A stretch of 64,000 nucleotides of DNA from Ascidia mentula (taxonomy: Eukaryota > Chordata > Ascidiacea > Phlebobranchia > Ascidiidae). The notes under the pieces were generated by a model, which saw only the letters and a list, made by a program, of their open reading frames with translations, was not told the DNA's origin and searched no databases. The stretch spans positions 744,001 to 808,000 of the forward strand of contig OX387202.1 of the NCBI GenBank assembly GCA_947561715.1, given 5' to 3'. Shown one piece after another: positions 31,058 to 61,170 of this stretch; positions within the stretch are counted from its first letter, which is position 1; the number at the start of each line of letters is the position of its first letter. Both the position numbers and the translations under genes were made by a program.

Positions 31058-31088
31058 ACTTGTACAAAACCAGGAAAATTTTCCTTAC

Positions 31089-31229
31089 TTTTGAATTGAT
31101 GAGATTGTTTCCTGCTTGTGTAAAGTTTTCCATATTGACAATCAACCACCCGATTTTGTGTCTGCATGCAGTCAATGACTCAGCACTTTTATATGTCAAA
31201 TTAGTGCAGTATAGACACAAGCCTTCCAT
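31089..31229 (-). CDS. NLR locus 3: last-type LRR exon, 141 bp
   Basis: 47 codons starting MEGLCLYCTNLTYKSAESL and ending NLINSK, with donor AAA-GTAAGG, phase 0. Counterpart of 9674-9814 and 42668-42740. The LxxL pattern is eroded (CRHKIGWLIV where a relative has CVHNIERLDA), so the LRR has probably decayed. Confidence 0.55.
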
Positions 31230-31481: not shown

Positions 31482-31643
31482 AGGATTTTGAAAATCTTTA
31501 ATTTTTTGTGATAGAATTTCCACACCCTCATCTCCTATGTCACAATAACCCAAATAAACTTCTTTAATGTTGTGAATGCAACGAGCCAATACAGCTGCTC
31601 CACTATCTCCTGTCTTCTTCATGGAAAGAATTAGTTTCTTCAT
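31482..31643 (-). CDS. NLR locus 3: LRR exon, 162 bp
   Basis: 54 codons beginning MKKLILSMKKTGDSGAAVL, with LGYCDIGDEGVEILSQKIKD, donor GTAAGA and phase 0 ends. Two ribonuclease-inhibitor-type LRRs; open throughout. Confidence 0.65.
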
Positions 31644-31954: not shown

Positions 31955-32172
31955 CGGTTTGTTTCTTCTTTCAATCACAAAGCAGAGGTTTTCAAACTGC
32001 TCCAGAGTGAGATCACTGCTTAGATCAAGCTTATCGGGAAGTTTGGAAGCTACTGTAGAAGTTATTTCGTCAGCATTTAGTTTATGGGCCCTCCCGCATT
32101 CTTCAAGTATTTTTTCCATGTTTCTTCTCAAAAAATTCATGCTAGAAGATGTTGGATTAAAATTTGTTCTAC
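31955..32172 (-). CDS. NLR locus 3: exon after the NACHT region
   Basis: Acceptor CTTTACAG and donor CCG-GTAGGC. It encodes 72 complete codons with EKILEECGRAHKLNADEI, VASKLPDKLDL and LCFVIERRNKP, the same segment as 18882-19123 and the end of the locus 1 NACHT exon. Entry phase (2 bases) and exit phase 0 agree with the other loci. The NACHT part is not found upstream, so this is a partial locus. Confidence 0.6.
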
Positions 32173-37430: not shown

Positions 37431-38805
37431 TAAACTTGTATTTGTTTGTGAATTTATTTCAATGCTAGCATAAAATCGGAAATAATCCAGCTAATACTCA
37501 TGTATCTACTTTTAAAAATAAATTATTTTTTTACATATATACGTAATATACACGGATTTTTAAGAATGAATATTTTTACCTCACAAAATCAACCTACCTA
37601 GCAACTCTTCTTTTGCGTGGCACAAGTGAAATTCGCAGCAGATGAATTCACAACACGTTTACACATGGGTGCCAATGAAACAAAGCGTTGTGATGACAAC
37701 GCACATAAGGAGTATTTATAAATGCACAGTAAAGAGTGTATGAAGAAGATGCAGTTTTATAGTGGAGTGCTACATTGTGCTAAGGCTTAATTCACGTTTG
37801 GCCTGTAATAGACGTTAATTACGCACCAAAAATGCGAACTTTTCATTGACAAGACCTTATACAAAACAATGGGAAAACGGACATGTTTGTTTTAAGAAGG
37901 TTAATTATGTCGAACCTGAAACGTTTGTCGAATCCTAGACCTCTACAATTTTAAAATTGCCTCAAAAAACATTGCGCAATAAAAAATAGTTTGCAAATCA
38001 CGTTGATAATTACGAAAAAAATGATCAATTTACACAAAAGTTGGATTTGGTCTCTTGAAGTGTCTATTTGTCACGCTGTTTGCTGCACGAAGGACCAGCA
38101 TCTAAAAATAATTGGAATTTATAATTTTTCACTCTTGTAACGATTTTTTACTTAACGCTGTTTAATTTCATAAACTTTTCCTGTTGCAAAACCACTCCAA
38201 AGTTTCGTTCAGTCTACGCGCACCAACCATATTCAGGAAACACTCATAAAGATACAATAAAGGGCAACAACTTTGTAGAATTAAGATTATAAACCACTAC
38301 CTTAAACAAACGTTCCACAGTGCGCATTGTTATTACGGTAAACTATATTATGCAGTTTTGCCAATGTTTTTTGTTTCAAGATTCCTAATGATTTTTTGTG
38401 ACTGTAGAACTAACGGAGCTCTATACAAGTGATGTGTGACATTTTTAGCATCATCGTAAAATTGGTGTATCCACGTATATTGGTCAATATGAATCATATT
38501 CAGCAAACACGTTACACACCTTGTGATGAACTGGACGTCGTTTGCTGAGTGTTTGTTTTGTTAACTGAGCCTCCTGCTATGGTGATGTTTGGTTCATGCA
38601 ATGTACAGCCAGCAAGTAAAGTACCTGAATATTGCAGTGAATGTAAGAGACTTACTATTTTAAACTTAATACGTGCTTTGCCATACTTGCTTGACCTAAA
38701 GGACTTCGTGTCGCATCAATTTTTGACAAAAACTTCTGCAGAGTGTTCGCCTGTTAATAAACATATAATGCATCATAAGGAATATACGATTTTATTACAT
38801 CTTAC
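37431..38805. other. Gap: 3' side of NLR locus 1 with a candidate terminal exon
   Basis: No death-fold domain is visible. One candidate last exon on the minus strand is 38101-38030: the acceptor AATTATTTTTAG is strong, entry is phase 0 as needed after the UPA exon, and it encodes 23 residues (MLVLRAANSVTNRHFKRP and a few more) before TAA. Alternatively the true last exon was lost or moved. Confidence 0.3.
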
Positions 38806-39052
38806 TTGTATCGGTTGATCGCTTGCTGTTTCTACTTTTACACCAAAATTTGATTCACGTTTTTCCTCACCAAATTCCAGCTTTAAATCAACTATTTCAT
38901 AACCAGTTGTAGCAAATTGCAAAACAACATCACGTTGTACTGTATTGTCAGAGTAAATATTCTTTAATTCCATTTTTAGGATTTCATTCTCAGGAAATCT
39001 AACTCGACCACTTTGACTTGTGAGAGTTAGTGTTCCTTCGTTCTGATGAGAT
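38806..39052 (-). CDS. NLR locus 1: UPA exon 2
   Basis: Acceptor GTTTTGTCAG and donor CAA-GTAAGA. It completes the split Arg codon from the previous exon and encodes SHQNEGTLTLTSQSGRVRF, then PENEILKMELKNIY and an end near ETASDQPIQ. It fits the second half of a UPA domain (strands with a hydrophobic-x-F pattern). Exit is phase 0. In NLRP1, CARD8 and PIDD a death-fold domain follows UPA; none was found here. Confidence 0.6.
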
Positions 39053-39900
39053 CTGACAAAACATGTTACAGTGTGAATTCTGTTGAATTGTAAAGATCAC
39101 TCGCAATTACATAAAGCGTTATTTTGTTTGACGCTACAAATTTTCCAACCATGCAGTTGCTCAACTTGAATTTGAAAAATTGGTAAAAATTGCAAAGATG
39201 CCTTCATTTGTCGTTTTATTAATGGATTGGAACGGTTAATATCCTGCTTAGGAAAGAGTTAAGGCTGACGAATGTCTGCTTCATGTCAACAATGCCTCGA
39301 GGAGATTTAAAATTCACAAATACATGATACCTAACCTTGCGCCAGCAATTTCGTGTGATATTTCCCAAAATGCCAATCAGTCAGCGATAGTGACTGCAAC
39401 TGGTTGTAACCTTTTTTTATTAATTGTTACGTCATAATTAATTAATTAATGCAATGCCTAAACCTTTTTCGTCAAATTTCTCGTAAGTATTGTTAGTGAT
39501 AGCAAGGTAAGGTATACATGCATATCGTTTCGATTAATGTGCGAATAGCTGAATCTTACAGATAATTTAACTAATATGTACTTATCGATGAAATAAAATA
39601 GATACAAGGTTGTGTAAATAATGGGCTTATTTGATATTTAAATTTGTTAAAAATGTCTGTGCCCCGCAATAAATTTGTCCAAGCAAAAATGGTCCTCGGA
39701 TATGTTCTGCCCTTAAGTTTCCCACGTAAGAATAGACAGCATAAATTTCTTTCTGAATTTACTAATTGACACATGATGATTTGGGCGATTTGAGTTAAAA
39801 AACGTGTTGTGTTTTTAATTGTGTATAATGTTCCAGCTTTTTTGGGGGAAATTAAAGTTACTCCCTTGTATTATATTCGTAACTTCAATTAACTAACTAC
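39053..39900. other. Intron of NLR locus 1
   Basis: Between the two UPA exons. A minus-strand frame near 39571-39774 has no recognisable domain. Confidence 0.5.
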
Positions 39901-40083
39901 CGTAATTTAAAATCCATCAGCTGTCGAAGATTGGGGTTTTTTGCTCGGTGAGGTTCAAAATTGTGACAAATAAGAAATCTCCAAAGTTTCTGGAAACTTC
40001 CTGGGCTTTCATCGTCCGGAAATCCAGACATAAACATTTTCGTCTTCGACCATCCAAAAATATTTTCAGTTACCACACCAAAC
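39901..40083 (-). CDS. NLR locus 1: end of ZU5 and UPA exon 1
   Basis: Acceptor GCATTTAG and donor ACG-GTAGTT. The first base completes the Trp codon from the previous exon, giving THFTW-FGVVTENIFGW across the junction. PIDD has HFSW followed by a hydrophobic strand (FLVV) at this place. The exon continues KMFMSGFPDD and LWRFLICHNFEPHR, like the start of UPA domains. Open throughout, ends with two bases of an Arg codon. Confidence 0.65.
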
Positions 40084-40175
40084 CTAAATGCACCAAAGAA
40101 GATAAATAAATTGCAAGCAACTGACTTGTAAAGGCTGTTACAGTATTATCAAATACAAAAACGTGTTACACTTAC

Positions 40176-40273
40176 CAGGTAAAGTGAGTTACTGTAAATG
40201 TAATCTTCCCCTCTCCACTGTAGGATAAAGTTTGATAATATTCCCATTTTTTACCATCCTGACTTGTTTCAAC
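40176..40273 (-). CDS. NLR locus 1: ZU5 exon 3 with the THF-TW site
   Basis: Exon of 98 bp, acceptor AATATAAAG and donor CTG-GTAAGT, entry phase 0. It encodes VETSQDGKKWEYYQTLSYS and GKITFTVTHFTW. In self-cleaving ZU5 domains (PIDD, NLRP1, CARD8) a His-Phe-Ser or closely related sequence stands at the cleavage point; here it is His-Phe-Thr. Threonine serves as the nucleophile in the comparable GAIN-domain site (HL-T), so cutting is possible but not shown. The acceptor is weak in pyrimidines, the least secure splice of this group. Confidence 0.65.
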
Positions 40274-40504
40274 CTTTATATTGTGTGAAGCGTTAACACA
40301 AAATCATTTAAAATGAAAATTCATCCAACTCACTTCACAAAAATGACAAATACTTTCAGTTATAAAATATACACTTTAATACTTAGTTCCTTGTTTGACT
40401 GAGCAAAATATGGATAACAAAGTCAGAAACTATATCAGCAGTTTTTGGTGTTTGCTGTGAACACACTTTTTCGTGATGGTCACAAAGTGAATGTTCAAAC
40501 TTAC

Positions 40505-40618
40505 CACAACAAGTTGATGAGGATCTTCACACACAAAACATGATGGTAAAGTGATGGTGACATCTTTGGTGAACTTTAACCCGCTTGGTCCACAATACAA
40601 CAATGGAGTAATTTCCTT
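40505..40618 (-). CDS. NLR locus 1: ZU5 exon 2
   Basis: Acceptor ATTACACAG, donor GTG-GTAAGT, phase 0 at both ends, 38 codons. The encoded EITPLLYCGPSGLKFTKDV and TITLPSC match the ZU5 core pattern (T-P-hydrophobic-x-C/F-G-P-x-G-L-x-F-x-x-P/D-V-T-hydrophobic-T-L-P) closely. This is the clearest single piece of evidence for the domain. Confidence 0.75.
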
Positions 40619-42294
40619 CTGTGTAATGAAAACCCAATAAAAAAAGTTTTAATATTATTGTTGAATAATGAAACATTTTTCTTGTTAACAACCAAGAAAT
40701 TACGTCTTGCATTGGTAGAGATAACAAACATAAAATATTCCATATGTTTCCACATGGTTGTAAATATTGTGTATTTTGATGCATCAATATCTTCTGTCAT
40801 TTGTTTCAACAGATTCAGTGTTTAGTACAGAAAGTATACTTTTTGTCTACCTAAGAAGTCTGTCCTACAGAATGGCGGCACATAACTAAGCAACCAGGTG
40901 ATGCATGGAAATCAAATTTGAAGGGTGGATGCGCAGGTTAGCAAGTGCTTTTGCAAAGCGGTTTTGAGCGTATTGTGGTAATTTTAGTAAAAAAACTTTA
41001 TCCAATTTAGTCATGTAGTCGTTGGTTGTAGGGTGTTGACAAAAATTGTTTGAAAAAACATCAAAATGTTCAGAGGGATAATTTAATTATTCATTTTTCA
41101 TTTTATTTTTGGTCCGCCTCATGTTTAGGCCGCATCTCTGTATTTCTGCCCTTCTCGAACTGTGTCCTGCGTAACAGAGTAAAATTATGTGTAACAATGC
41201 AATGGGTCATGCATGGGCGCCAGTGTTTTGGTTGAATGAGCGCAGATGAACAGGCTGTTGCCAGGGCGATTTTCAGCGTGTTTGGGGCAGTTTTGCTATG
41301 GTTTTCAGGGTTATTAGTCAGGCAGTAAATTGGTAGAGGGTGCTATTGAACATGTAGCTGAAAAACTACCCAAATATTGAGGTTGATTTTGTGGAAAAAT
41401 GAATCACTGAAAGTATGGTCAATTTGTGATTTTCTGTTAGTGCCGACCCTTGTCTAGGAATTGTGGCCAAATTTATAATGGAAATAACTACTTTAACTGC
41501 TCCCCCGGGGTAATTTTGACTATCTGTTGGCCATTATTTTGGCCAAAAAAGCAGAAAAAAGTGTAGGTTTGTTTTGTGAAAAAATGAATCACAGAAAGTA
41601 CCCTCCATTTGCGATTAAGTGAAGCCACCAACCCTCCTATACACAATTCATTAAGAATTAGATGTCTTGTAATTGTCTTGGGGACCCACCGGGGCTGTTT
41701 GTACACCCCCTAGGACTGACAATTTAGCAGTCACCCTTTGCAAAACCCCCCAATGTGCTTTCTTAATGCAGCTGCAATCAATTTTTTTCTGTTCAGCAAT
41801 AGTAGTCCCCCTTCATGAGTCAGACCCGGCAATTGTTTTTGGCAAACAAGAGAAACTGTAAACAGGTGCACAATGACAAATGACTTGTGAAACTCAATTT
41901 TTAGGATTTAATTGTGAGATGCGGCCTTTAGGCATTCAGGTCAAAATTAGTTGTGGGGTAGTTGCTTAAAGTACCCTCCATGTACATCATTATAGCTAAA
42001 ATGACTGGACAAATGGCTCACTATAACCTTATCGAATTTGTAATTCAGCATTAGCCCTACCCTTCTCTGTGCAATGACAAAACAATTTTGGCATCCCCCT
42101 TGGCTGTTTCTACTATCTTGTAGGACATAGGTTCCTCCTGCAGGGTTGATATTGAAACTTCGCACGAATGCATTCTCCATTAGCGGAAACTGTGCGACCG
42201 AGTTACCCACATTTGGGAGTAATCGCAAGGGTAAGCCAAGTTTTAGAAAACAAGTAAAATCCTGTACTTACATCACATGTATAAAACCACTTAC
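40619..42294. mobile_element. Intron of locus 1 with nested TTAA-type MITEs
   Basis: An inner copy, 41128-41926, starts GGCCGCATCTCTGTATT and ends with AATTGTGAGATGCGGCC; TTTA at 41124-41127 and 41927-41930 flank it. It sits inside an older copy that covers about 40870-41123 and 41935-42150. Both share TTTTCAGCGTGTTTGGGGCA-type or CCCCTTGGCTGTTT-type blocks with the copies at 18.2, 23.0 and 30.4 kb. No coding sequence. Confidence 0.6.
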
Positions 42295-42456
42295 ATTTGG
42301 CTTGATATTTCCATAGTAGCTTCTCAACCAAATTTTTACATTTGTTTTCAGTGCATTAGGAGGAATATCAACAACACAACCCATCACATCAAGTTTGCCA
42401 CCTTCCACACCAACAACTGATGATGTTGACTGGATTACTTCATACTCTTTATGTTT
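42295..42456 (-). CDS. NLR locus 1: ZU5 exon 1
   Basis: Acceptor ATTTACAG and donor AAT-GTAAGT, phase 0, 54 codons. It encodes STSSVVGVEGGKLDVMGCVV and then DIPPNALKTNVKIWLRSYYG. The pattern G-G-x-L-x-hydrophobic, then hydrophobic-x-I-P-P-x-A-L is the standard start of ZU5 domains. Being phase 0 on entry, it can follow any of the LRR exons directly. Confidence 0.75.
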
Positions 42457-42667
42457 CTGTAAATATAGAAAATATAATTATTAGTCATGTCTCAGTCATT
42501 ACAATGTTAGTAGTAGTATTTATGGTAAGATTCTTTATAGTTGTAAATTAAACATCATATAAAACCTTGTTACAGACCAAAGCAATTTATGCAAAATAAA
42601 CGTTAATTGTAATGAACAGTTTAGTACTTTGGTTTAAACAAAAACATGCATATATTATTTTCACTTT

Positions 42668-42740
42668 GGAATTGATGAGATCCTCCCCCGCCTGTGTAAA
42701 GTTGTTTCTTATGACCGACAACAACTGAATATTGTGCATA
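42668..42740 (-). pseudogene. NLR locus 1: second half of the last-type LRR exon
   Basis: Encodes MHNIQLLSVIRNNFTQAG and EDLINSK with donor AAA-GTGAAA. It matches the second half of 9674-9814 and 31089-31229. The first half, with its acceptor, is replaced by unrelated sequence at 42741-42768 and then the duplicated block. The exon therefore cannot splice as in its relatives; skipping it keeps phase 0. Confidence 0.55.
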
Positions 42741-42768
42741 GAAAAAGGAAAAGAAAATAGGCTTTCTA

Positions 42769-43984
42769 TGAGCCGTTACTGCAGGGTCCGGGCCGTTTTT
42801 AAATTAGGAAATAATTCCGTTACAGCATCAACGGTATACTAAAAGCAATCACTCGACCCAAAACGAATGTTTTCTTGTCGATGGTATTCGCTGACATGTT
42901 AATCATCCCTGGTACATATATCGTTACATGAGTATTTGGCCCTGAAGTCGCAAAAAGGAAAAAAGTGGTCGACAAAACATGGCGATCAATGGAAAGTCCG
43001 CCCAGTCAACTTAAACATGAATCCATGTGAACATACGCACGCCAAAGCGTCTATCTGACAATTTCTGTGTTCTTTTCTAGCTTGCTTTAGAAGTTCGTCG
43101 CGATGTTTTTTCCATCACATTTGCCACAACAATTGCAAAAATGCCAAACAAGAAGATTCAAGCGCTGAGCTGGGTGCAGGGCTACCCCTTCGCTAAAATC
43201 ACGGAACAAGTTGTCGCTGCCATTTACCGAGAGCGCAAGGAATCGTGTAAGTAAACCGCTTTTCGGTGTGTGACAATCGTATCAGAATTTCAGTTAATTC
43301 TCTCTGTGTGTTTATGTGCCGTTAAAAATACGTGTAAAAGCGAGACAACTTACGATCGTTCTTATTGTGTTCCAGTCACGAAATTACGCTGTTCCTAATT
43401 ATGAAATACTAGGGGCAGTGATTTAAACTCCAGAACCACTATGACGTGGCAAAGAAGCTTATGCTCAATCAAAAGTCAGGTGGTGGCAATTTTTCCGAAT
43501 ATCAAGGATGGATTTGAACGGTTATTTTTAATTTATTGTGCGACATCACCTGACGATACCGAATGCATTATCGCATCGCGCATTCTTCAAAAGTTGGTTG
43601 TGAGGTTTCTAAAAAAGCGCTAAAATGTGATCCTGCTTTTTTGGTTATGTTGTTTTGCTCCACTCGGCTCCTCTTATAAAACAAATAAACCTAACGCACA
43701 ACACCTAGTACGCTGACATTTTCGTGCATGTTGGACGCATTCATTTCAATACAAACATAAATATTGTTCCTTTGGACAGACATGAATCACTCACCGGTTT
43801 CTTCAACAGTTTAATCTTCTCCGATAAATGTTTGGCACCAACGCTTGTCAGGCCGCATCCACCCAGAACCACTTGTTCAATGTTGTGGATGCAATCGGCC
43901 ACGTAAACCGCACCACGGTCTTCTATATTGTTGTAGGAGAGGTTGAGCATCTTCATCTGAATGAAATAATATCCAAGTTAAACA
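42769..43984. repeat. Recent 1.2-kb duplication, copy A
   Basis: Matches 46086-47300 in the same direction over its whole length with about ten differences. It contains one LRR exon of locus 1 (43795-43956) and, at 43141-43630, a piece related to the small gene at 61.3-62.2 kb in the Polinton region (shared SWVQG and DGFERL motifs). Confidence 0.8.
43795..43956 (-). CDS. NLR locus 1: LRR exon, copy A
   Basis: 54 codons starting MKMLNLSYNNIEDRG, then VYVADCIHNIEQVVLGGCGL and GAKHLSEKIKLLKKP. Acceptor TTCAG, donor CCG-GTGAGT, phase 0 at both ends. Two ribonuclease-inhibitor-type LRRs. It differs from copy B (47111-47272) at four bases near its start, each changing an amino acid. Confidence 0.75.
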
Positions 43985-43999
43985 AATGTGATTAATAAA

Positions 44000-44335
44000 T
44001 AAAAACTGGATCAAAAAACCAAAGGCCCCTGGCAGGCTGTCGATCGCACACCGTATCAATAATAATGTATTAAAATCCCAACACGGCGATCTTTAGACAG
44101 CTCAGATGGATTTATTAAAAAGAAAAATATATTTCGCCTAAAACGGCATCATCAGGTTCTCCATTGACCAAAACTGCCAAAAACGAAAAACAGAAAGGAA
44201 AGAGTCAAGAATCTAACGCAAAAAGGTTACGAAAGCTAAAAATAAATAAAAATTTAATAAAAACTTTTAAAATATTCGGGTTTTAAGCATTAACTAAGAA
44301 ATAATAAATGTATGGATTAACTGCATGTGGTTCAA
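44000..44335 (-). mobile_element. Penelope-like 3' tail inserted in duplicated intron
   Basis: On the minus strand the sequence CCTGATGATGCCGTTTTAGG followed by CGAAATATA has the hammerhead-like core of Penelope-like tails. It interrupts the intron sequence that is continuous at 15835-16150, so it inserted after that duplication. No coding part remains. Confidence 0.5.
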
Positions 44336-44339
44336 GTTA

Positions 44340-44640
44340 AACAAAGTGTGAATAACAACACAGATAAGTGATATCAAAAAACAATATGTGAAAAATAAGA
44401 TTAATAAGTAAAAATTACTTTTATTCAAGCGCGAATGTTTCTTGTTCCGATTTGAATAAATTCCATTTATGTAAAAGAATAGAAACTGGGACAGACGAAG
44501 TAATTGTGAGGTTTGTATCAGAATGAATGACGGAGGTAAACCGATTCCTGATAATTAAACTTCTTACGACCACTCAGTGTAGAACTGGCTTGCTAATAAG
44601 ACTCGGCGATCCAAGTTATGAGATTACAATGAACATGGCG
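44340..44640. repeat. Duplicated intron sequence, partner of 15835-16150
   Basis: GTGAATAACAACACAGATAA, ATGAATGACGGAGGTAAACC and ACTCGGCGATCCAAGTTATG are shared with 15.85-16.13 kb. See that entry. Confidence 0.7.
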
Positions 44641-46085
44641 TACGTAAAAATACCAACAACACTAGTAAGCTACTTTAACAATGCTCGGTTTGAGAAATAA
44701 AACTTAATGACTCTGCCAGGGATGTCAATGGTTATGGACTTGTTTCGAGGCTTTCTAGACAAAATTCGTAACCTCAAAATTCGTAACGTGAACCCGCATA
44801 CCAACAAAGATTTATTGGAATATTACACGCAAGATGGAATCTGAAAATGCTGATAACGTCAAGCTGACGACATCTTGGCCTCCACAACCACGTGTATGTC
44901 TGCAGCAATCGAAAGCACAGTTTACACTTGGGAACATCAAGGCAGATTAAACAAAGATTATCGACGTTGTGTCCGCACTAGATCAGGACGCAACGCGTCG
45001 ACCGATTGATATTTTGAACCACCACCTGATAGAGACAAACATGCAGCCATCAAGACACGGTTGACACTTTGGACCTTTCTCGCAAATAGTGCGCATCACG
45101 CTTATCCAGCTTACCTTCCTTATGCGAAAGCCATTGGCGTTAATGAACGAGATACTTGCTTTGTTAGGTGATCACACATGCTTCCTGTTTAAACACTTGA
45201 TTTGCAAACATTTGTCAAGCCGACGTTCCTGGCATGTGCTTTTACCATATACGTTACGGGCAAAAATTACGGCAATGCTTTCCACCACCTTTCAGGAAAT
45301 CTCCAACGCCGGTTCCCTGTAATGGCTGAGGTTACCGGCAAACCAATCGGCCTTTTTCTTGTAAGGGATTCCAGCCAAAATTTTCTTATCGACACGAGCG
45401 TTGAAGTCGATGCCATGCCCCCTACTGGATTTGAACGACACACGAACGCAAAAGATATTGCATTAAAATCTGTTAAGTTCGATTGCTGCATCCACCACGG
45501 TCACAAGACTGTAACGAAGGAATTTCGCCGATAAATTTATTTCGGTTGTCCCAGCAACATGGACGAAAAGTGTGTTTGACGTTATTCATGCACTTTCTCA
45601 CCCATCTATCCGCATCACCAAGCAGCTTATTGCCTCCAAGTTTGATTGGCTTTCATTGTGCAAGCAAGCGGGTCTACGGGCGAGGTAAATTCTGTGACGA
45701 TGTTTAGCGCAGTGTTACAACATATACCAAAGTTTGTCCATTTTGTTCAGAGTTCGTATGTATCTGACAGTCAGTAACAATGACATGCAATGAGCGATAG
45801 AGGAAGGTGTCACCAAACTCTAACAAATTGCACACGAATAACGGAGAAACGATCCTTGCGCCATAATAGAAGCCAGACGTTCAGAGCGGCAACGCTAAGC
45901 ACTGACGAGTCGCGTGCAATTAAAGACGCCGATTTGTTTACGCCTAAAAAACACACTTGTAGTATGGCTAACATCAGTGCTTTGGGGACCTCCCTTTAAA
46001 ACGAGGTTAATCTGCATCACTCTAATACAGGGGTTCCATGACGCCCATTTGGTGAAACCAGTGTGAAGGACTTTGGCTTCAGTGG
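44641..46085 (+). mobile_element. Ty3/Gypsy-family LTR retrotransposon fossil
   Basis: A retropepsin-like piece (MAEVTGKPIGLFLVRDSS), parallel to the one at 14.1 kb, is followed by an integrase zinc-binding-like region near 45560-45690 (HALSHPSIRITKQLIASKF). The reverse transcriptase part is missing. The element is broken in several places. Its right edge meets copy B of the 1.2-kb duplication. Related to the fossils at 14.0 and 35.1 kb. Confidence 0.65.
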
Positions 46086-47300
46086 TGAGCCGTTACTGCA
46101 GGGTCCGGGCCGTTTTTAAATTAGGAAATAATTCCGTTACAGCATCAACGGTATACTAAAAGCAATCACTCGAATCAAAACGAATGTTTTCTTGTCGATG
46201 GTATTCGCTGACATGTTAATCATCCCTGGTACATATATCGTTACATGAGTATTTGGCCCTGAAGTCGCAAAAAGGAAAAAAGTGGTCGACAAAACATGGC
46301 GATCAATGGAAAGTCCGCCCAGTCAACTTAAACATGAATCCATGTGAACATACGCACGCCAAAGCGTCTATCTGACAATTTCTGTGTTCTTTTCTAGCTT
46401 GCTTTAGAAGTTCGTCGCGATGTTTTTTCCATCACATTTGTCACAACAATTGCAAAATGCCAAACAAGAAGATTCAAGCGCTGAGCTGGGTGCAGGGCTA
46501 CCCCTTCGCTAAAATCACGGAACAAGTTGTCGCTGCCATTTACCGAGAGCGCAAGGAATCGTGTAAGTAAACCGCTTTTCGGTGTGTGACAATCGTATCA
46601 GAATTTCAGTTAATTCTCTCTGTGTGTTTATGTGCCGTTAAAAATACGTGTAAAAGCGAGACAACTTACGATCGTTCTTATTGTGTTCCAGTCACGAAAT
46701 TACGCTGTTCCTAATTATGAAATACTAGGGGCAGTGATTTAAACTCCAGAACCACTATGACGTGGCAAAGAAGCTTATGCTCAATCAAAAGTCAGGTGGT
46801 GGCGATTTTTCCGAATATCAAGAATGGATTTGAACGGTTATTTTTAATTTATTGTGCGACATCACCTGACGATACCGAATGCATTATCGCATCGCGCATT
46901 CTTCAAAAGTTGGTTGTGAGGTTTCTAAAAAAGCGCTAAAATGTGATCCTGCTTTTTTGGTTATGTTGTTTTGCTCCACTCGGCTCCTCTTATAAAACAA
47001 ATAAACCTAACGCACAACACCTAGTACGCTGACATTTTCGTGCATGTTGGACGCATTCATTTCAATACAAACATAAATATTGTTCCTTTGGACAGACATG
47101 AATCACTCACCGGTTTCTTCAACAGTTTAATCTTCTCCGATAAATGTTTGGCACCAACGCTTGTCAGGCCGCATCCACCCAGAACCACTTGTTCAATGTT
47201 GTGGATGCAATCGGCCACGTAAACCGCACCACGGTCTTTTATATTGTCGTTGGAGAGGTTGAGCTTCTTCATCTGAATGAAATTATATCCAAGTTAAACA
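46086..47300. repeat. Recent 1.2-kb duplication, copy B
   Basis: Partner of 42769-43984. Because the pair flanks a Gypsy fossil it looks at first like an LTR pair, but it contains an exon with splice sites and lacks TG...CA ends. Confidence 0.8.
47111..47272 (-). CDS. NLR locus 1: LRR exon, copy B
   Basis: 54 codons starting MKKLNLSNDNIKDRG, otherwise identical in sequence to copy A up to the donor CCG-GTGAGT. Phase 0 at both ends. It is the first LRR exon downstream of the NACHT exon; the intron between holds the composite Penelope-like element. Confidence 0.75.
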
Positions 47301-47692
47301 TGGAGTGAGTAACAATAAGACAAGGAATCAAGTAAATAATGGCAAATACGTAAACGTCTTTGTTCGTTTTGTTTTCTTTATTTCTTTTTGTATTTTCACT
47401 TCCACTTTAACTCACACATTTTCTTTGTTTATTTCCACACTCACCTTTTCTAATATATTTGTTGTTATTTCGCCATTTTACTCGTTTTTATACGCCCGAG
47501 CAGTCACGCTTGAGTGGCAATCGTAGGCAGTAATGATTGGTTTAAGTGCTGGCGGCTGAAATAATAAGCGAAAAGCCAGGTAGTTCTCTGGCGATGGAGA
47601 GTTGAAAATACTGTTTTGGTGGGAGATCGTATGATGTATTTGTTGATGAATGCCAGTTGTGGTGGAATATTATTGTTGCTCAAGTTTTAGAA
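47301..47692. other. Intron of NLR locus 1
   Basis: No gene. AT-rich sequence with runs of TTTC/TTTG up to the insertion site of the Penelope-like element. Confidence 0.5.
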
Positions 47693-47955
47693 CAAACGCT
47701 GTTTTAATCGGTATTGCTCTTCTGGCACTTAGTTTCTAAAGTGTTTATTGGAAACCAACGTTTCGTCTGCCATCCGGCGAGACTTCTTCAGGGTTAATTC
47801 AACAGTGAAGCATCACGCACATAAAACACCAAAAACGCAGGAAAAACGCAGGAAAAACGCAGGAAAAACGCAAGAAAACACAAGGAAAAAGGAATAGATA
47901 ACACTGGCACCGCTTGCATCGTCACGTGAACCAGGTGTGTAGCGGGGCGTAACAT

Positions 47956-48675
47956 TTACAACAAGTTGTTGTATACAGCTGGAAAATATACGCATTGCTC
48001 CTTATTGTTTATGCAATGGTCATTTTTGTGGATGTGGAGCGTCTCCAGGAACAAACGTTTTGTATGATCGTCCTCCATCTCTAGGATTTGCACCTCATCA
48101 AAGTTAACTCGGTGGCCGAGTGTGGCAGCGTGTTTTGCCAGTGCTGTCCTCTGGCTGTTCTTCGCTGCAACGTCGCGGCGATGCTCTTTTAACCGAGTCT
48201 GTAACCTTCTCCCTGTCTCACCGATGTACGCTCCACCGCAGTCCTTGCACGGAATGTAATAGACAACGCCTTTTGGTTGGCCCGTACCCTTCTCGATAGG
48301 GTGAGACAACATCCTTCCCAGTGTTTTGTGAGGCTTAGTGTAGACCGCAATACCATAGTCCAACATCATACGCCTTAGCGTGTCTGTTAGAACCGGAACA
48401 TATGGCAAAACGATCGTACCGGTAGTTGGCGCTGTTTCTTGTGGCTTGACCGCAGGCTTTCTTCTAAACATCCATGACGGATACATATGTTTCCGCAGTA
48501 CCTTCCTTATGAACTTCACCTCTTTATCACGGTCTTCTTCTCGGGAAACCAGAGCCTCGGCTCTATCCATCAGCGACCGCACTACCGCTGTCTTGTGCTG
48601 TATCGGATGTGCCGACTTAAACGACAGGTACCGATTGGTGTGCGTCGGCTTGCGATACACATGAGTGCTGATCAA
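47956..48675 (-). CDS. Penelope-like element: GIY-YIG endonuclease region, arm 1
   Basis: 239 open codons starting ISTHVYRKPTHTNRYLSF. The early part (HPIQHKTAVVRSLMDRA) is the thumb and linker typical after Penelope RT. Then come CKDCGGAYIGETGRRLQTRL, the Cys pair and GIY-YIG-type core, and KEHRRDV. It ends VYFPAVYNNLL. The nuclease nicks target DNA for insertion. The copy is uninterrupted in this part. Confidence 0.75.
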   Translation of the reverse strand: MISTHVYRKPTHTNRYLSFKSAHPIQHKTAVVRSLMDRAEALVSREEDRDKEVKFIRKVLRKHMYPSWMFRRKPAVKPQETAPTTGTIVLPYVPVLTDTLRRMMLDYGIAVYTKPHKTLGRMLSHPIEKGTGQPKGVVYYIPCKDCGGAYIGETGRRLQTRLKEHRRDVAAKNSQRTALAKHAATLGHRVNFDEVQILEMEDDHTKRLFLETLHIHKNDHCINNKEQCVYFPAVYNNLL

Positions 48676-48738
48676 ACCTTTCTCATCACGGATAACCTCT
48701 GTATCTAAAAACGGTAGTGTACCACCACTTTCGTTTTC

Positions 48739-50254
48739 TTAAGTAAATTTGATGGAATCTTCCACATGGTTAATGTGGGTAAGGAACAACTGGAGCTGTG
48801 CTTCATCAACGATGGCGAAGGTGTCGTCGACATAACGCTTCCAGTAACGGGGAGAATGCGCAAAAGTGGCGAGTGCCTTATCCTCAATTGTTTCCATTAC
48901 AATGTTCGCCACTACCATAGAGATGGGGGAACCCATCGCCGTACCAAACACCTGTTGGTAAAACACACCACGAAAGGAAAAATAGGTGGCGTTCAAACAT
49001 AATTTCAGCCCTTCTGCGATATCCTCACAGGATAACAACGTGCGTTGCTCAAGGTTACTGTCATCCTCTAAGCGTGCCATGACATTAGTAACAGCTACCG
49101 ATATTGGCACATTGGTGAAAAGAGACACGACGTCAAAGGACACAATACACTCATCATCCGCTATCGTCAAGTTCCTCACTTCGGCTGCAAATTCACGTGA
49201 GTTTTTTAACGTGATATGGGCTATTCCCAACCAAAGGGGAAATAATCCTTGCTATAAATTTGGCGAGCATATAAGACGGGGAGCCGATAAAAGAAACAAT
49301 GGGTCTGAGAGGCACGCCTGGCTTGTGGACCTTGGGAAGCCCGTACAATTCGGGCGTCCTACCGTCTGTGCAATGCAGCTGTCGAAACTCACCAACAGAT
49401 AACGCCTCAAGCTCCCTGTGTAAGTAACCGATGAAGCGGTTTATCTTTCGTTCTAAGGACGGGGTCGGATTTCTGGATAACTTTTTGTAAGTTTTTGCGT
49501 CACTTAAAAGTTCCAGCAGTTTAGTGTTATATTCGGAACGGTTCATGACCACCGTTCGATTGCCCTTATCGGCACGCAATATGACGATGTTCTGGTTGTT
49601 GCGAAGTTCTCGTGCAGCCGACAAATATGACCTAGGGGTGTTAGAGCCAACGGTATTGTGGCCACTGTGGCTACGAATAGAGCCAACAACTTTGCCCTGC
49701 AGAAGTGACTTTATATGCGCGGGCTGTCCAACCAGGCCTTTCTCAACAGAAGCCAAAATCTGTTTCCATGGTATCACGTTAGGTGTGATGGCAAAATTCA
49801 TACCTAGCGACAAAACACCATGCTGTTCTGGTGTGAGCTCATGGTCTGACAAGTTGGTAACGCAGCCCTTTACCGTTAATTCCTTCCTTTTATCACGCCA
49901 CATACCGAGTTTTTCTTCGCACTTTTTTCTTCCTGACGTCACAATTCGTAATGTGCCTTCCTCCACGTAAGACTTCAGTGATGAAAACACAGTCATGTCA
50001 AGGTCTTTCCTTAACCTCTCTGTAATTCCGCTCAGCTCATACGTATTGTTTTTAATGCGCAAATGTGCATCTTTTATGCGCAGTTTCAAAAAACGAAACC
50101 CACAAGATCGCATAATGTCTCTCCCTTCTTTAGATGCCATAGGTGATCTGAACCTTAGACTTGGTGGTAATATTTTCTCTCTGAGACAAGAGTGATTGTG
50201 ATGCAAATGAACCTTGCTGCTTGCGACGCCAAAATTGAGTCGAACAAACCTTCG
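48739..50254 (-). CDS. Penelope-like element: N-terminal and reverse transcriptase region
   Basis: Reading leftwards: a basic N-terminal part (HLHHNHSCLREKILPPSL), NQNIVILRADKGNRTVV, ELYGLPKVHKPGVPLRPIVS, then SFDVVSLFTNVP near 49134 (motif A), FGTAMGSPISMVVANIV (motif B) and RYVDDTF (motif C). This order and DKGN/YVDD set are typical of Penelope-like reverse transcriptases, sister to telomerase. The region is in more than one frame, so this copy is not whole. Confidence 0.75.
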
Positions 50255-51381
50255 AGCCACCTTCGCCATCGTTGATGAAGCACAGCTCCAGTTGTTCCTT
50301 ACCCACATTAACCATGTGGAGGATTCCATCACATATACTTTAGAAAAGGAAAGTGGTGGTACACTGCCGTTTTGAGATACCGAAGGTATCCGTGATGCGA
50401 AAGGTTTGATCAGCACTCGTGTGTATCGCAAGCCGACGCACACCAATCGGTACCTATCGTTTAAGTCGGCACATCCGATACAGCACAAGACAGCGGTAGT
50501 GCGGTCGCTGATGGATAGAGCCGAGGCTCTGGTTTCCCGAGAAGAAGACCGTGATAAAGAGGTGAAGTTCATAAGGAAGGTACTGCGGAAACATATGTAT
50601 CCGTCATGGATGTTTAGAAGAAAGCCTGCGGTCAAGCCACAAGAAACAGCGCCAACTACCGGTACGATCGTTTTGCCATATGTTCCGGTTCTAACAGACA
50701 CGCTAAGGCGTATGATGTTGGACTATGGTATTGCGGTCTACACTAAGCCTCACAGAACACTGGGCAGGATGTTGTCTCACTGTATCGAGAAGGGTACGGG
50801 CCAACCAAAAGGCATTGTCTATTACATTCCGTGCAAGGACTGCGGTGGAGCGTACATCGGTGAGACAGGGAGAAGGTTACAGACTCGGTTAAAAGAGCAT
50901 CGCCGCTACGTTGCAGCGAAGAACAGCCAGAGGACAGCACTGGCAAAACACGCTGCCACACTCGGCCACCGAGTTAACTTTGATGAGGTGCAATTCCTAG
51001 AGATGGAAGACGATCATACAAAACGTTTGTTCCTGGAGACGCTCCACATCCACAAAAATGATCATTGCATAAACGATAAGGAGCAATGCGTATATTTTCC
51101 AGCTGTATACAACAACTTGTTGTAAATGTTACGCCCCGCCACACACCTGGTTCACGTGACGATGCAAGCGGTGCCAGTGTTATCTATTCCTTTTTCCTTG
51201 TGTTTTTCCTGCGTTTTTCCTGCGTTGTTAGTGTTTTATGTGCGTGATGCTTCACTGTTGAATTAACCCTGAAGAAGTCTCGCCGGATGGCAGACGAAAC
51301 GTTGGTTTCCAATAAACACTTCAGAAACTAAGTGCCAGAAGAGCAATACCGATTAATCAGTATGCCTGGCAACAAAAATAG
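50255..51381 (+). mobile_element. Penelope-like element: inverted second arm with endonuclease
   Basis: The 3' 1.1 kb of the element in the opposite direction. The open frame 50406-51125 is nearly identical to the arm 1 endonuclease (differences such as TKPHRTLG against TKPHKTLG). The arm begins within the end of the RT region (CCATCGTTGATGAAGCACAG). Arms differ at scattered bases and in tandem-repeat number, so they are two real copies and not an assembly mirror. Confidence 0.75.
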
Positions 51382-51395
51382 CAAACGCTGTTTTA

Positions 51396-52504
51396 TTCGC
51401 ACTTTTGCCAGTTTTACCAGTTTACATGAATATTAGGCAAACTATACAGGTAAACCATTGTTACGTCATACAGACGTTCATAAATTTTTAGAACAACCGT
51501 TGTTTTATTCGCATTTGTGCCAGTTTTACTTCTTATAACTATTAGCGTTTCTATTTTATTACAAAAGTAGCCACCTTAGTCGTGTGACTCCAGGTCTCTG
51601 CGATAGGCCGTCAGTGCAGAGTAGCCTGGGCGTTAACCAAGTTAGGGGGACAAGCTAATTTCGGTTACACAATGACTGCAGAACGATTGATGAATCCGTT
51701 CAAAACACGCAGGGGCAGTCCTCTAAACACAATTTTTTTTAACTATGCGAGACAACTTCACCGCATCCAAAGCCGCTTCCAATTCCAGACAAGGAATGGT
51801 ATGCTTTCACTCTAATTATGGTTACATATATGGATGTCGGGCCGTTTTGTTTAGAGTTTGCTTCATACAAAAATAATGACGTGTTTTGGTTGAAATACAA
51901 AGTTTAAACAAACATAAGTTACATAGAGTGAAGCGAGAAGGTTCACCACGTGCACTTATCACCCGCCCTTGTATTTTCCGAATATTGTTTTGGATAAAAC
52001 TAAATTTAAGTGATGTGTAAACCTTTCAAATAGACGTTAACACAACTTATTTTTTGGGTCTACATCTCGGTTTGAACCCATGAAATCCTGGTCATGAATT
52101 CCGACCGTTATTACGTTCACCGTACATTTACCCATGTCGCACCATTACGTTTCTAAGTACAAAATCACTCGTGAATACGTCTTTGTTTGCAAGAATGGGC
52201 ACCGGCTCCATTTATATTCACTTATGTTTGACATTGCAAGACGGTAAACACAAAATATTATGTGTTGTTTATATCTGACACCACTTAAACTCTGTTCGAT
52301 TATCACCGACAATAATATGATGACGAATTATATCGTCCAAATATACATTGCACACAAAGGACAGAAAATATGTTTTGAGTTAAGTTAACACCATGTCTGG
52401 TAGCGTCAGCAACGTGTAAACAGCTGGTCACCCTTTTCAGATTTTGCGCCCCCCTCCACCAGGATTTCAGTCATGGGTACAGAAATGCATAAACAACATC
52501 TTAC
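51396..52504. other. Intron of NLR locus 1
   Basis: Sequence resembling the insertion site (AACCGTTGTTTTATTCGCA near 51494) recurs about 115 bp downstream of the target duplication, a small local tandem repeat. No gene. Confidence 0.45.
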
Positions 52505-54156
52505 CGGTTTGCTTCTCCTTTGAATTACGAAGGTGAGATTCTCGAGGTCGGTCAGGAGGAGCGATAAGCCACCGAGGTTGATCTCACCAGGGAGTAAGGA
52601 GGACACGATTGAAGTTAACTCCTCATCGTTCGCTTCACGAGCCCAGCTGCAACATCGAAGTATCGCTTCCTTGGTTGGTTTCCCCATACACGACGATGCG
52701 AGGTTTTTCAGCAGCTTCTTCTTAGCTTTCCAATCTTCACGTGAACACCCAGGAACTACGGCTTCAATATCGTTGAAAACTGAAGAATCGCAAATTCCAA
52801 ACGCGAACTTGGCAACAACCTCCCATCTGGCATCGGTAAGTTGGGTGTATTGTTCCTTGAATTCTTCTAAAGGCATGATCGTCATCAGGTAAACCGCGGA
52901 GAAGAATTCTTGCCAAATGAGATGTGAAAAATATCTACGTTTGTGTCCGTCCAGTATTGTCAGCTTTAGGTTTCCCTGCTTTGTAACTGAGGTATTCAGA
53001 AAAGCATGAACTGTCGAGTCATTTAGTTTTGCGTTTTTGAAATCTTGTACTTTGAATACAACTTTCTTGTTCCGAAATCCGTCCCAGGCCAATTTGGAAA
53101 GTTTGTTGAACTGTTTATTTTCATCCTTCAGGTGTTCAGTTTGTGAGTATTGAACACAAGTAGATGCCAGAACACGGGGAAGCGAAACATGCTGACTATC
53201 ATCATCATGACTCAGCAGATAGTTGACGGTCAGTATGAAATTAACCGGAACATAACAGTAAGAGAACATATTGGTGTTTTCTTCAAGTTTGTTCTCTACA
53301 GAGTCATATCTTGCACCGCATATCTGTTGTCCAAGTTCTCTCTGTGAGTTTGGAGTTAAGCCGAGTATCTGGACAATAAACCTTGGTCGATGTGAAGGAT
53401 GGAGTTTGTAGAATGGAGCTGGTCGTGACGTGAATATCTTCCGGGAACGTGGAAGCAAATTTCCACTCAATAAATGCTTGAGATAAATTTCTGCTTTGTT
53501 TTCTTTATCCAAGAGGGGAGTGGGAGCTTTACTTGAGAATGATTCAAAAGCTGCTTCATCTACTCCGTCGAAAACCAAGAGAACATCTGGATCACCATTG
53601 ATTGCTTGCATTATCCCTTGAGCTACCTCTGGATTGTATTCCCAGCTAAGTAGAATGGCATGGAGGAGAAACCGAAGGAAAGTCATGCTTGTTTCAAAAT
53701 TTATATTTCGGATTACAATGTAGAAGATGAAGGATATTTTCCCAAACAACTCTCTATGCAAAGCTTGTAAAGCCCATTTTTTGCATGAAGTAGTTTTTCC
53801 GATGCCCGCTTGACCGACAACACCAACAATATTTCCATGCTTTTCCACGTACTCGAGCTTTGCTTCCGCTTGTTTAGGTTTAAATTTCCATTCTGCTTCT
53901 CTTTGTGCTGTTTGCTTTGCACGAGTAAACATTTCTTCAGGGCTGATGTCACCGGATGGTCGATCGTAAACTTTAGCCAACTCCTCTCTACGATGGTAAT
54001 GTCCTTCTGCTTGAAACTCGTCATCTATTTGTGATGGTTTGCTGACTATGGATAGGTTGACTGGTGTTATGTTTCGTTGGGTAATTTCTGCAAGTGATGA
54101 TTCTTCACTGGTGATGGATTCCACTTTATCTTTTAAAGTTGACTTCAGTTCTTTGC
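52505..54156 (-). CDS. NLR locus 1: NACHT exon
   Basis: A long exon of 550 codons. NACHT proteins are cytosolic STAND ATPases that oligomerise when they sense danger. Counting from the ATG at 54226, Walker A GQAGIGKTT is at residues 138-146, Walker B LLVFDGVDEA at 216-225, sensor IFTSRP at 264-269 and the winged-helix end FSHLIWQEFFSAVYL lies in the last third. The exon ends LTFVIQRRSKP with donor CCG-GTAAGA in phase 0, matching the LRR exons. The frame is open to an ATG at 54226, but an acceptor ATTATTGTAG at 54157 leaves 2 bases of a codon, the same entry phase as the related exons of loci 2 and 3. I therefore think the first 23 codons are intron and earlier exons lie to the right. No break is seen. 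Confidence 0.85.
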
Positions 54157-57700: not shown

Positions 57701-58699
57701 GTAAGGTGACCGCGCGCGATAAGCTATAGTGTAATGTCACGATAAACAACAATGAATTTTACAGCGACCTTTTAATACAATCGACACAACCAGTGATCGG
57801 CCGGACATCATAGACAACATAGACATTAGCGTGTGATAAGTGGTAAGCGACAAGCGATCTCGTTTTGTAAAAAAAACAGATTCTCGCTCATGCTCAACCA
57901 AAACACGACTTCGCCGAATTTACAACCGATCAACGATGAAAGTAAGTGCGTTTATAACATTAACTCTCACCTGCCACTGACTGACATCGTTATCTCATTG
58001 GTTGATGTTTGCAAACAGGCAACAGTTCGAACCGACAATAACATGTTTCTGGCGAGCAACCGCCAGCAGTCCGCTTAATCGCCCAGCGCTGATTCGCAAT
58101 TCGCATTTACGCACGAATTGGACTTGTGACGTCATTGTACCATTTCTCGTTGCCCATCGTTTGGTCACGTGTCGACCGTATGGTACACGTCATATTGCGA
58201 CAGACAGAGAACCTTCAAAATTAATAACAGTTTGTTTCACGTCAGAAACCATTCTGGGAAACGGCCATATTTTCACGCGTCGGACAACAATGCAATACTT
58301 TTCTCCACACCTCGCGGGATGACGTTTTCGCATTCTTTCAAAAGCTCGCCGGAGCAGATCACGTAAATCATCAGGCAAAAGCGTCCCGATTTAAAATGGA
58401 AAGTTGAAGCGTTGACAAACCTTGCTTTCTACGTTTATTTCACACCACACGCCTGGATAGGAAATCCAGTCAATTTATCGAGGTTTCTCACGCTCAACAC
58501 GGGTCCCATCACATTTATTGGTTTTAATATTGCTTTGGTTTAAATATCAACGTCTTCAGGCTAAAAGCGCCGGCGACGTGCGAATTTTTATACAAAAGTT
58601 TTCGACGCTTTCAAAAAAAGCGCACCACGATCATGAACCTGGATTTAACAAATAATCTTTACAGTCTCATCACGGATTTTCCAAAGTAGACATCGAATT
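57701..58699. other. Gap within the Polinton region
   Basis: No recognisable gene. Short overlapping frames only. Confidence 0.4.
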
Positions 58700-61170
58700 T
58701 TGCTTGTCCGATGTGCAAAGTAACCTTTACTCGGACTGACCGCTGTGCACAACACCAGAAAACGTGTTCTCTTGTCACACGTGAGACATTTTCAGGTGGC
58801 GCATTTTCCATCAGTCCAACGATTTTCGAACGGTTGGAATTGTGCGGCATTGACGTACCGCCGCAACATCGCTTTTATCCATTTGTGATTTTCTTTGACT
58901 TCGAGGTGATGCTGAGTCAGCATAATTTACCCGAACGAACGGATAAAACGGAATGCCAAGCTGTACACATTCCTCTCAGCCTTGCCGTGTGCAGTGACGT
59001 ACCTGAGTTCGAACAAGGCCAGTGTTTCGTCACAACAGGTCAACCGCAAGAGTTGATTGACAGGTTCATGGATTACCTGGGTCCAATACATTACAAAGTC
59101 AAAGTAAAACAGGCGCTCGCAATTAACTCCTGACAGGGCGAACATCCATACGAAGTGTGTAAAAAGATTTTCCATATTATCTGCAAAACATTCCCGTAAT
59201 ACAATTCGGCTCTCTACTTTCGTTGCAAACAAAGTCAACTTCCTATGCGTTCAAACCAAGCGATTTACGTTTATGGACGCGAGAAAATCACACTGCGCCG
59301 AATGTGACCTACGCCAATTTTTTAAAATCATTTGTCAAGAATCCAAAGGTGTTTTCCCAAACGAGTTTCTCGACGACTTCGCCAAGTTAAACTTGCGTTG
59401 TTTACCGCCGAAAGAGGCCTTTTTCAACAGGCTAAAGTATAAAGGAAGGCGTTTCTCAAGAGGTCTACGACGGTTGTTTACGCGTGTGGAAGGAACGGAA
59501 GATGTCTACATTGAAGGATTTCCTTATTCATTACAACATGCTGGATGTCACTCCATTCATTGAAGCCATGCGAAATCTCAGCTCGTTGGCGCACGGGCAT
59601 CGAAATGCTCAAAGACGACGTGTCACAAAATCCGCTATACGTGATATGATTGAGACCAACGATGACGTATGCTTTGCGTTATTTCACCGGCGACACAAGC
59701 ACCAATTACATCTGATACAGGTGGCCGAGAGATTATATTTTCCCGTTTTCACAAATGCGACGAAAAGCGAATTCGCGCGTTGGAATTAGGTCAAGACGCC
59801 TTATTGTGCAAGGCTGTTATTGATCGGGATGCGAATTCATTATATCTCCATTGCACGTCTAAGGCCATGCCTGTTGGGCCTTATGACGTCACCACACTTG
59901 ACGAAAAAACGAACGATTTAACGTCGACCGTACAGCGCGTTTTGGTTTCCTAGCGGACGAATGTTTGGTTTAGAGGTTGTCGATCGAGTCTATATTGGAC
60001 GGCAAATGAACCGAGGTGAAATACGTCTTGGGTGGAAGCGTGTCCAGGTTGACGGTTATGCGGGTGAGTCGAACACCGTCTACAATTTTCAAAGTTTTGT
60101 ATGCTTATCCTTCTGGCGACGCCGTAGGCCCAGTGGTATCTGAGCCACGGCCTGAAAATCTCATGATTATACCGCGTAATCGCGTTTGAACCCCGAGCCT
60201 GTTTCAGGCATTTTGCTAAAACGGTGACGGACGCGCGCTGTCGCGGTGACTTCGACGCAAGCAAGCTCAGTTTGGCGGACTTCCACAAGCTGGCAGGTGC
60301 GACAATATTTGATCTTGGCTTGGCAATTTTTATTAATTATGCAATATTTACTTTCACAAAACGATGATGCGTTTTCAATCATTTCAACTGTACTATTTTC
60401 TGCTTGGGTTTTCTAATTACTTCCGCTTCCGACAGGAAATGCTTTGTATGGATCGTTGTTGCTGCGCAAAGATAAGCAAAGAAATGTCAAACATTGCGAT
60501 GCAGCGGCCGCTTGCCGAATCGTTCAGAACTTTTTCCATCTGACGGAAATGGACGAGGATTTGTACGAGATCGAAACCACAAAGAAGCGAGTTTTACAAG
60601 AAACACCGATTCAAATTATCGTTTATGTTCATGACCTGGCCAAGCTTCGATTGTTGCAACTGGTCTACGATTGTTTTCAACGTTTCCTGATGCCGAATGG
60701 GTATCAAATTTGTTTATGTCATACGGACAATGTTTAATTTTGCCTCTAAGCGAAGATTCCATTCACAAACTTATACGCCCCGAACTCCGCCGCGAGTTCT
60801 ACGGGAACTATGAAGAGTTTTTTCCCGCGAAATCCTGCGAAATTCACTGTGAGAGGTTTGTCGACTATATGACGTCACAAGGTGATTTCGTACCAGGTGA
60901 CTGCTGCCGTGCGCGCGAGCGGTCATTCCATTGTGGCACTGTCCGCCAAAACATATATCTGCGAAGGTGATCCCGTTAAACGAGCCGCCATGGGTTTGTC
61001 CAAGGCTCAGAACCCGCTCGCCATGAGTGATTGCCTGCATGTGTTGAAAACAGGCCGGTCACGCAAAGGGATCAATGTGAATTTTCAAGATGTCAATCAA
61101 AGCGTGTTTACACGCCGTTGGGACGTATAGGCCTAAATTATTTTTATGCTAAGCGTATCGTACTTTCCGA
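58700..61170 (+). pseudogene. Polinton protein-primed DNA polymerase B, fossil
   Basis: Pieces in order: an N-terminal zinc-binding start (CKVTFTRTDRCAQHQKTC), an exonuclease I-like FFDFEVML, FPNEFLDDFAKLNLRCLPP, a DNA-binding palm region near 59.8 kb (around the MPVGPYDV stretch), and a C-terminal end with RRWDV near 61.12 kb. The enzyme would copy the element from a terminal protein. The gene is broken in many places and several catalytic parts cannot be seen. Old. Confidence 0.7.

Follow-up and report, generated by a model that had tools for sequence, protein, structure and literature searches.

We analyse a 64,000-nucleotide stretch of the genome of the ascidian Ascidia mentula (the window; contig OX387202.1, positions 744,001 to 808,000, here C70:744001-808000) and related loci in the genome searched, which comprises 195.8 Mb in 79 contigs. 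On the minus strand of the window, eight exons between 54156 and 38806 are bordered by AG and GT and agree in phase, and their joined frame contains no stop. Spliced in frame, this chain encodes a NACHT part, two LRR parts, a ZU5 domain and a UPA-sized region, and is followed by two further exons (38750-38687 and 38624-38520). An earlier reading made from the letters of the window alone (the sequence-only reading) had placed NACHT, LRR and ZU5-UPA exons on one strand in this order; the positions and phases that it gave proved correct, as did the Trp and Arg codons that it described as split between exons. We interpret the locus, with a probability of roughly 0.55, as a copy of an ascidian NLR gene with the layout NACHT, LRR, ZU5, UPA-like region and short polar tail, CARD-less, similar to NLRP1 and PIDD and possibly autoproteolytic. 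The architecture of the gene is well supported; its mechanism we infer.

The NACHT exon (52505..54156, phase 1 in and 0 out, all exons of the gene being on the minus strand) comprises NACHT, winged-helix, helical and pre-LRR parts. Its translation carries a Walker A motif (GQAGIGKTT), and the Pfam profiles NACHT (62.9 bits, cut-off 26.7) and NOD2_WH (33.6 bits) score above their cut-offs, with NLRC4_HD2 falling below its own. LRR exon 1 (47111..47272) and LRR exon 2 (43795..43956), both of phase 0/0, reach 30.7 bits with LRR_6, also above cut-off. With a Walker A-bearing NACHT domain, a winged helix and LRRs all present, the gene is a member of the NLR (NACHT-LRR) family. Protein similarity agrees with an ascidian host: the NACHT exon shares 56% identity with its match in Phallusia mammillata, 37% and 34% with matches in Clavelina and 34% with that in Ciona, the nearer match by coverage being P0001, at 55%; comparison with the N-termini of Phallusia, Ciona and Clavelina proteins revealed no exons upstream of it. 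Its ratio of nonsynonymous to synonymous divergence (dN/dS) against nine copies is 0.30-0.40, a set that leaves out a tenth copy with a stop (L041).

Three exons make up the ZU5 part: 42295..42456, 40505..40618, which contains a CGPSGLKF block aligned with ZO-1, and 40176..40273, which contains the putative cleavage site, a position occupied by HFT, HFS or HFA among relatives. A domain search of the five-exon part, as proposed in the sequence-only reading, returned ZU5 for the joined exons at 28.2 bits (cut-off 21) but no match for UPA, and ZU5 scored above its cut-off in 6/6 members of the family. A six-frame search of the genome for ZU5 listed five places and missed the window, because each exon by itself is short; judged by eye, two of the five are ZO-1-like, one is ankyrin-like and two belong to another family on C69. 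This other ZU5 exon family, about 40% identical (C69:4708977-4780308; L004, L005), adjoins frames that may match the U2 exon described next.

The UPA-sized region consists of U1 (39901..40083, phase 2/2) and U2 (38806..39052, 2/0), the presumed first and second halves of UPA, neither of which matches a Pfam profile. A linker exon, U3 (38687..38750, 0/1), and a Ser/Thr/Asn/Gln-rich tail exon, U4 (38520..38624, 1/1; ...NITIAGGSVNKTNTQQ...), follow. We rejected a model in which U3 ends the gene at the in-frame TAG at 38657-38655, which lies beyond the predicted U3 donor: relatives keep the donor GCA A/GTATG and a phase-matched next exon, and the TAG is therefore taken as intronic, the donor pattern not being found in g2525 (L034+L051). 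U4, which encodes a polar stretch with NTQQ, is kept in three relatives (L046, L048, L049) and occurs four times at 341-bp spacing, phase 1/1, in a fourth (L008, C70:3818631-3821891), which also has HFA; the copy in L007/L050 is interrupted by a stop, and a U4-like pattern looked for after the UPA part of a related gene on C1 was not found. We considered whether the tail resembles RHIM or amyloid motifs, and do not claim that it does.

That NACHT-LRR-ZU5-UPA constitutes one gene is supported by two further loci that share this order in frame. The first (C70:890500-899400) is a stop-free NACHT-LRR-ZU5-UPA-like gene of 1,126 codons, and the second, on C1 at 24.51 Mb, is a diverged, likewise stop-free gene of 1,076 codons whose ZU5 part, at 17.9 bits, falls below the Pfam cut-off; introns are shorter than 0.9 kb in both. 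The exons in the window would, by analogy, be joined in one transcript. The NACHT and ZU5-UPA parts here lie about 10 kb apart, across introns that carry insertions, as would be expected of two neighbouring genes with their own promoters, but the order is unchanged at both further loci, where no intron between the NACHT and ZU5 exons exceeds 863 bp, and we regard separate genes as very improbable.

The putative cleavage site is conserved across the family. We found 28 exons carrying this position, the window exon included; one is cut off, and among the 27 readable ones HF is invariant (27/27) and HF/[T/S], the slash marking the putative cut, is kept in 26 (HFT in 24, HFS in 2, with HFA in the remaining one). 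The same motif is held in a gene whose U1 and U2 exons are 36-37% identical. This conservation makes a self-cleaving sensor, as put forward in the sequence-only reading, plausible, but the last domain of the NLRP1 layout is missing, no CARD or Death match lying near any copy in six-frame Pfam searches. Autoproteolysis at HF/T is a plausible but putative property of the protein. For comparison, the PIDD site is given as HF/S in the available text of PMC3210808. As a separate observation, synonymous divergence among six genes is far lower in the ZU5 exons (0.09-0.35) than in the UPA exons (0.60-1.21 in 14/15 pairs), the split point lying directly after the putative cleavage site.

Several results weigh against this interpretation, and they begin with the identity of the UPA part. 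The Pfam UPA and FIIND profiles recognise 0/6 members, and the window's UPA part is unlisted even at E<=10. When its profile was compared with those of NLRP1/CARD8 and UNC5, the UPA part gave no UPA match, a test rendered uninformative by the failure of its FIIND-UNC5 control pair, and a genome-wide UPA search without a match is equally uninformative, control genomes having been silent too. A profile searched against PDB sequences ranked a bacterial lectin first (E 0.0023, with no single significant stretch) and ZO-1 second (0.0029); an AlphaFold model of U2 by itself reached a predicted local distance difference test score (pLDDT) of 50; and no homologue of the ZU5-UPA sequence at E<=0.01 was found among database proteins of about 526-1675 or 147-470 amino acids. 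Because the Pfam profile gives no match, the label UPA is based on where the region lies, on its length and on its pattern, and the U1-U2 region, assigned by position, is predicted to adopt a UPA fold. The HFA copy belongs among the adverse points as well, its UPA exons being 84-90% identical to those of the window.

The ZU5-UPA part could instead be structural, offering the LRR part a surface for docking or autoinhibition without cutting itself. The ZU5-UPA parts of UNC5B and ankyrins are structural and are not known to cut themselves. Besides the failure of the UPA and FIIND profiles to recognise the ascidian part, a structural role is favoured by the Thr that replaces Ser in 24/27 copies and by the identity of the known sequence relatives, ZO-1 and UNC5B, both weak: a PDB sequence search gave ZO-1 as its best, weak match, and profile comparison related the ZU5 part to UNC5B at E 1.8e-5. 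The retention of HF/[T/S] in nearly all readable exons and in the gene with strongly diverged U1/U2 exons argues otherwise, as does the alignment, in the accessible portion of PMC3210808, of CARD8 Phe-296 with Leu-677 of UNC5b. We consider a structural role a serious but improbable alternative.

The state of the window copy itself also counts against it as a working gene. Its terminal LRR exon persists as a fragment (42653..42766) that has lost its 5′ part: query residues 14-51 alone match, and the frame from the nearest in-phase acceptor opens with a stop. LRR exon 1 sits in a duplicated 1.2-kb block that is 99% identical to the block of LRR exon 2, and the NACHT-LRR intron holds an inverted transposon pair (47704-51356), 95.7% identical over 1.1 kb, whose open frames look like those of a Penelope-like element. 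The copy may therefore be decaying, and the truncated exon, the recent duplication and the transposon pair would all fit a pseudogene whose functional counterparts are the genes at C70:0.89 Mb and on C1. The other exons of the model, however, carry no stop or frameshift, the terminal LRR exon of the family is 0/0 and hence skippable, and dN/dS between the window's ZU5-UPA part and its nearest ZU5-UPA relative is 0.29, so that we judge a pseudogene unlikely. Elsewhere in the window, plus-strand open frames at 58690-60737 presumably belong to a DNA polymerase B (Polinton-like) element.

The distribution of the module in the genome bears on which part of the gene is basic. At least 41 ZU5 modules were counted. 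Of 24 examined on C70, 23 have LRR exons upstream. Among 34 C70 modules, two have a close NACHT copy within 60 kb upstream; for the other 32, that stretch contains no member of the counted set of 33 NACHT copies. In this genome it is thus commoner for the module to follow LRR or GBP exons that have no NACHT close by than to follow NACHT itself. Conversely, and to the detriment of our interpretation, a ZU5 exon lies within 60 kb downstream of 2/33 counted C70 NACHT copies, and the roughly 8 kb upstream of a module at C70:923 kb contain no match to either LRR or NACHT. At C52:21150000-21451500 (L052-L054, L059), six GBP-type GTPase matches are each followed on their own strand, after 3.1-4.4 kb, by ZU5-UPA exons, and all six ZU5 modules of this region (C52:21.15-21.45 Mb) have a GBP GTPase ahead of them. 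Separately, C70:2093804-2637870 holds 26 plus-strand ZU5-UPA modules in tandem, and the scored matches include no NACHT copy close to them.

Modules may also be repeated within a gene. In the window, the phase of U4 at its exit matches the entry phase (1) of a pre-LRR exon at 31955..32172, which is followed by an LRR exon (31482..31643) and a terminal LRR exon (31074..31229, 3′ border approximate), all on the minus strand; no ZU5 match occurs within the window downstream of the latter (from 31229). In L048, an intron of 71 bp, or of 107 bp by another acceptor, separates U4 from the pre-LRR exon that follows, with matching phase, so that a single transcription unit can probably contain successive modules. 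Upstream of the pre-LRR exons of L051 (7.35 kb) and L047 (4.8 kb) there is no NACHT match and no open reading frame longer than 114 amino acids. Together with the scarcity of NACHT upstream of C70 modules, these features favour a PIDD-like arrangement in which LRR-ZU5-UPA is the basic unit, sometimes repeated per gene, and NACHT was joined to it in few places. Yet the NACHT forms on C70 and C1 differ at about 60% of NACHT residues, and the NACHT form is therefore not recent; the Death domain, a feature of PIDD, was moreover not found, and we hold this arrangement to be distinctly unlikely. A further minus-strand array in the window (19106-9662) consists of a pre-LRR exon, six LRR exons, of which that at 17259-17095 has a stop, and a terminal LRR exon; neither a complete NACHT exon nor a match to ZU5 is present there.

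The remaining adverse evidence concerns death-fold partners. Six-frame Pfam searches gave three CARD matches in the genome (C67, C1, C73), none near any copy, and 17 Death matches, none near the counted ZU5 loci (C70, C52, C1), although exon-split or diverged domains could escape such searches. The effector of NLRP1 or PIDD would thus be missing, unless it is diverged or split by introns. On the minus strand of C1:5920150-5920815 a CARD match is followed by a Death match, a pair that we take to resemble RAIDD/CRADD, the partner of PIDD.

The layout of NLRP1 proposed in the sequence-only reading holds for the NACHT-LRR-ZU5 order and frame, here and at the two further loci, but not for CARD, which was not found; UPA, half of the FIIND proposed there, is assigned by position and no profile confirmed it. 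The ascidian gene shares with NLRP1 the succession NACHT, LRR, ZU5 and UPA-sized region and a putative Phe-[Ser/Thr] site ending ZU5; it differs in having HF/T where NLRP1 has SF/S, and in an extra polar tail after which a second module may follow. PIDD1 has the layout LRR-ZU5-ZU5-UPA-DD; it resembles the ascidian gene in its LRRs ahead of ZU5-UPA and in HF at the site, whereas the ascidian modules have one ZU5, no Death domain found and, in some copies, NACHT. UNC5B, ankyrin and ZO-1 share the ZU5 domain but are not NACHT sensors. Fish NLRP1 is described as NACHT, LRR, FIIND and CARD in the available text of PMC9978379, and zebrafish Gbp3/Gbp4 are drawn with GBP, FIIND and CARD together in one figure of PMC4932187; the C52 relatives would likewise put a GBP GTPase ahead of ZU5-UPA, but no CARD was found in them and their ZU5 is of the ascidian cluster type.

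The premise that NACHT-LRR-FIIND is confined to vertebrates needs softening, since ZU5 is named among NACHT-associated domains in cnidarians (PMC8260672) and NACHT-Zu5 in all early diverging metazoans (PMC12909245), as far as the accessible portions of both sources go. The sponge, ctenophore and cnidarian proteins combine both domains in one protein, as here, and are known from domain names, the accessible text stating no LRR, UPA or site. TRADD-N fused to FIIND and to UPA-Zu5 is mentioned in the part of PMC8195603 available, and in the corresponding part of PMC11508797 NACHT and NACHT-LRR are the sole layouts listed for NLRs of ascidians. Within the portion of the open-licence literature accessible to us, we found no report of a tunicate NACHT-LRR-ZU5-UPA or GBP-ZU5-UPA protein.

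If the gene is the autoproteolytic NLR that we favour, an N-to-O acyl shift like that of NLRP1, CARD8 and PIDD would cut VTHF/T between Phe and Thr, and both fragments would stay held together. A pathogen or stress cue could then lead to removal of the N-terminal NACHT-LRR part, freeing a UPA-tail fragment that would assemble and signal. Since the searches found neither CARD nor Death domain behind the UPA-like region, output would proceed without direct CARD-caspase recruitment; it would depend on self-assembly of UPA, on the tail or on a partner that has escaped recognition. The presence of the ZU5-UPA tail behind GBP on C52 and, on C70, behind LRR exons that lack a close NACHT suggests a signalling end that can be carried by several kinds of intracellular sensor. 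We suggest, tentatively and at well below even odds, that tunicates have a ZU5-UPA tail that cuts itself with Thr as the nucleophile and is shared by NLR and GBP sensors without CARD, its UPA-polar-tail fragment serving as effector or assembly seed. Cleavage at HF/T could be assayed with one expressed protein, which makes for a simple test.

Tunicates are the sister group of vertebrates, and the gene bears on how the NLRP1 cut-and-release switch arose. If the suggestion is true, FIIND on fish NLRP1 and Gbp would descend from, or repeat, an arrangement independent of the CARD inflammasome. A CARD-less ascidian version, with its many modules placed on NLR, LRR and GBP parts, would suggest that cut-and-release works without a death-domain output, and that such an output was added or lost later.
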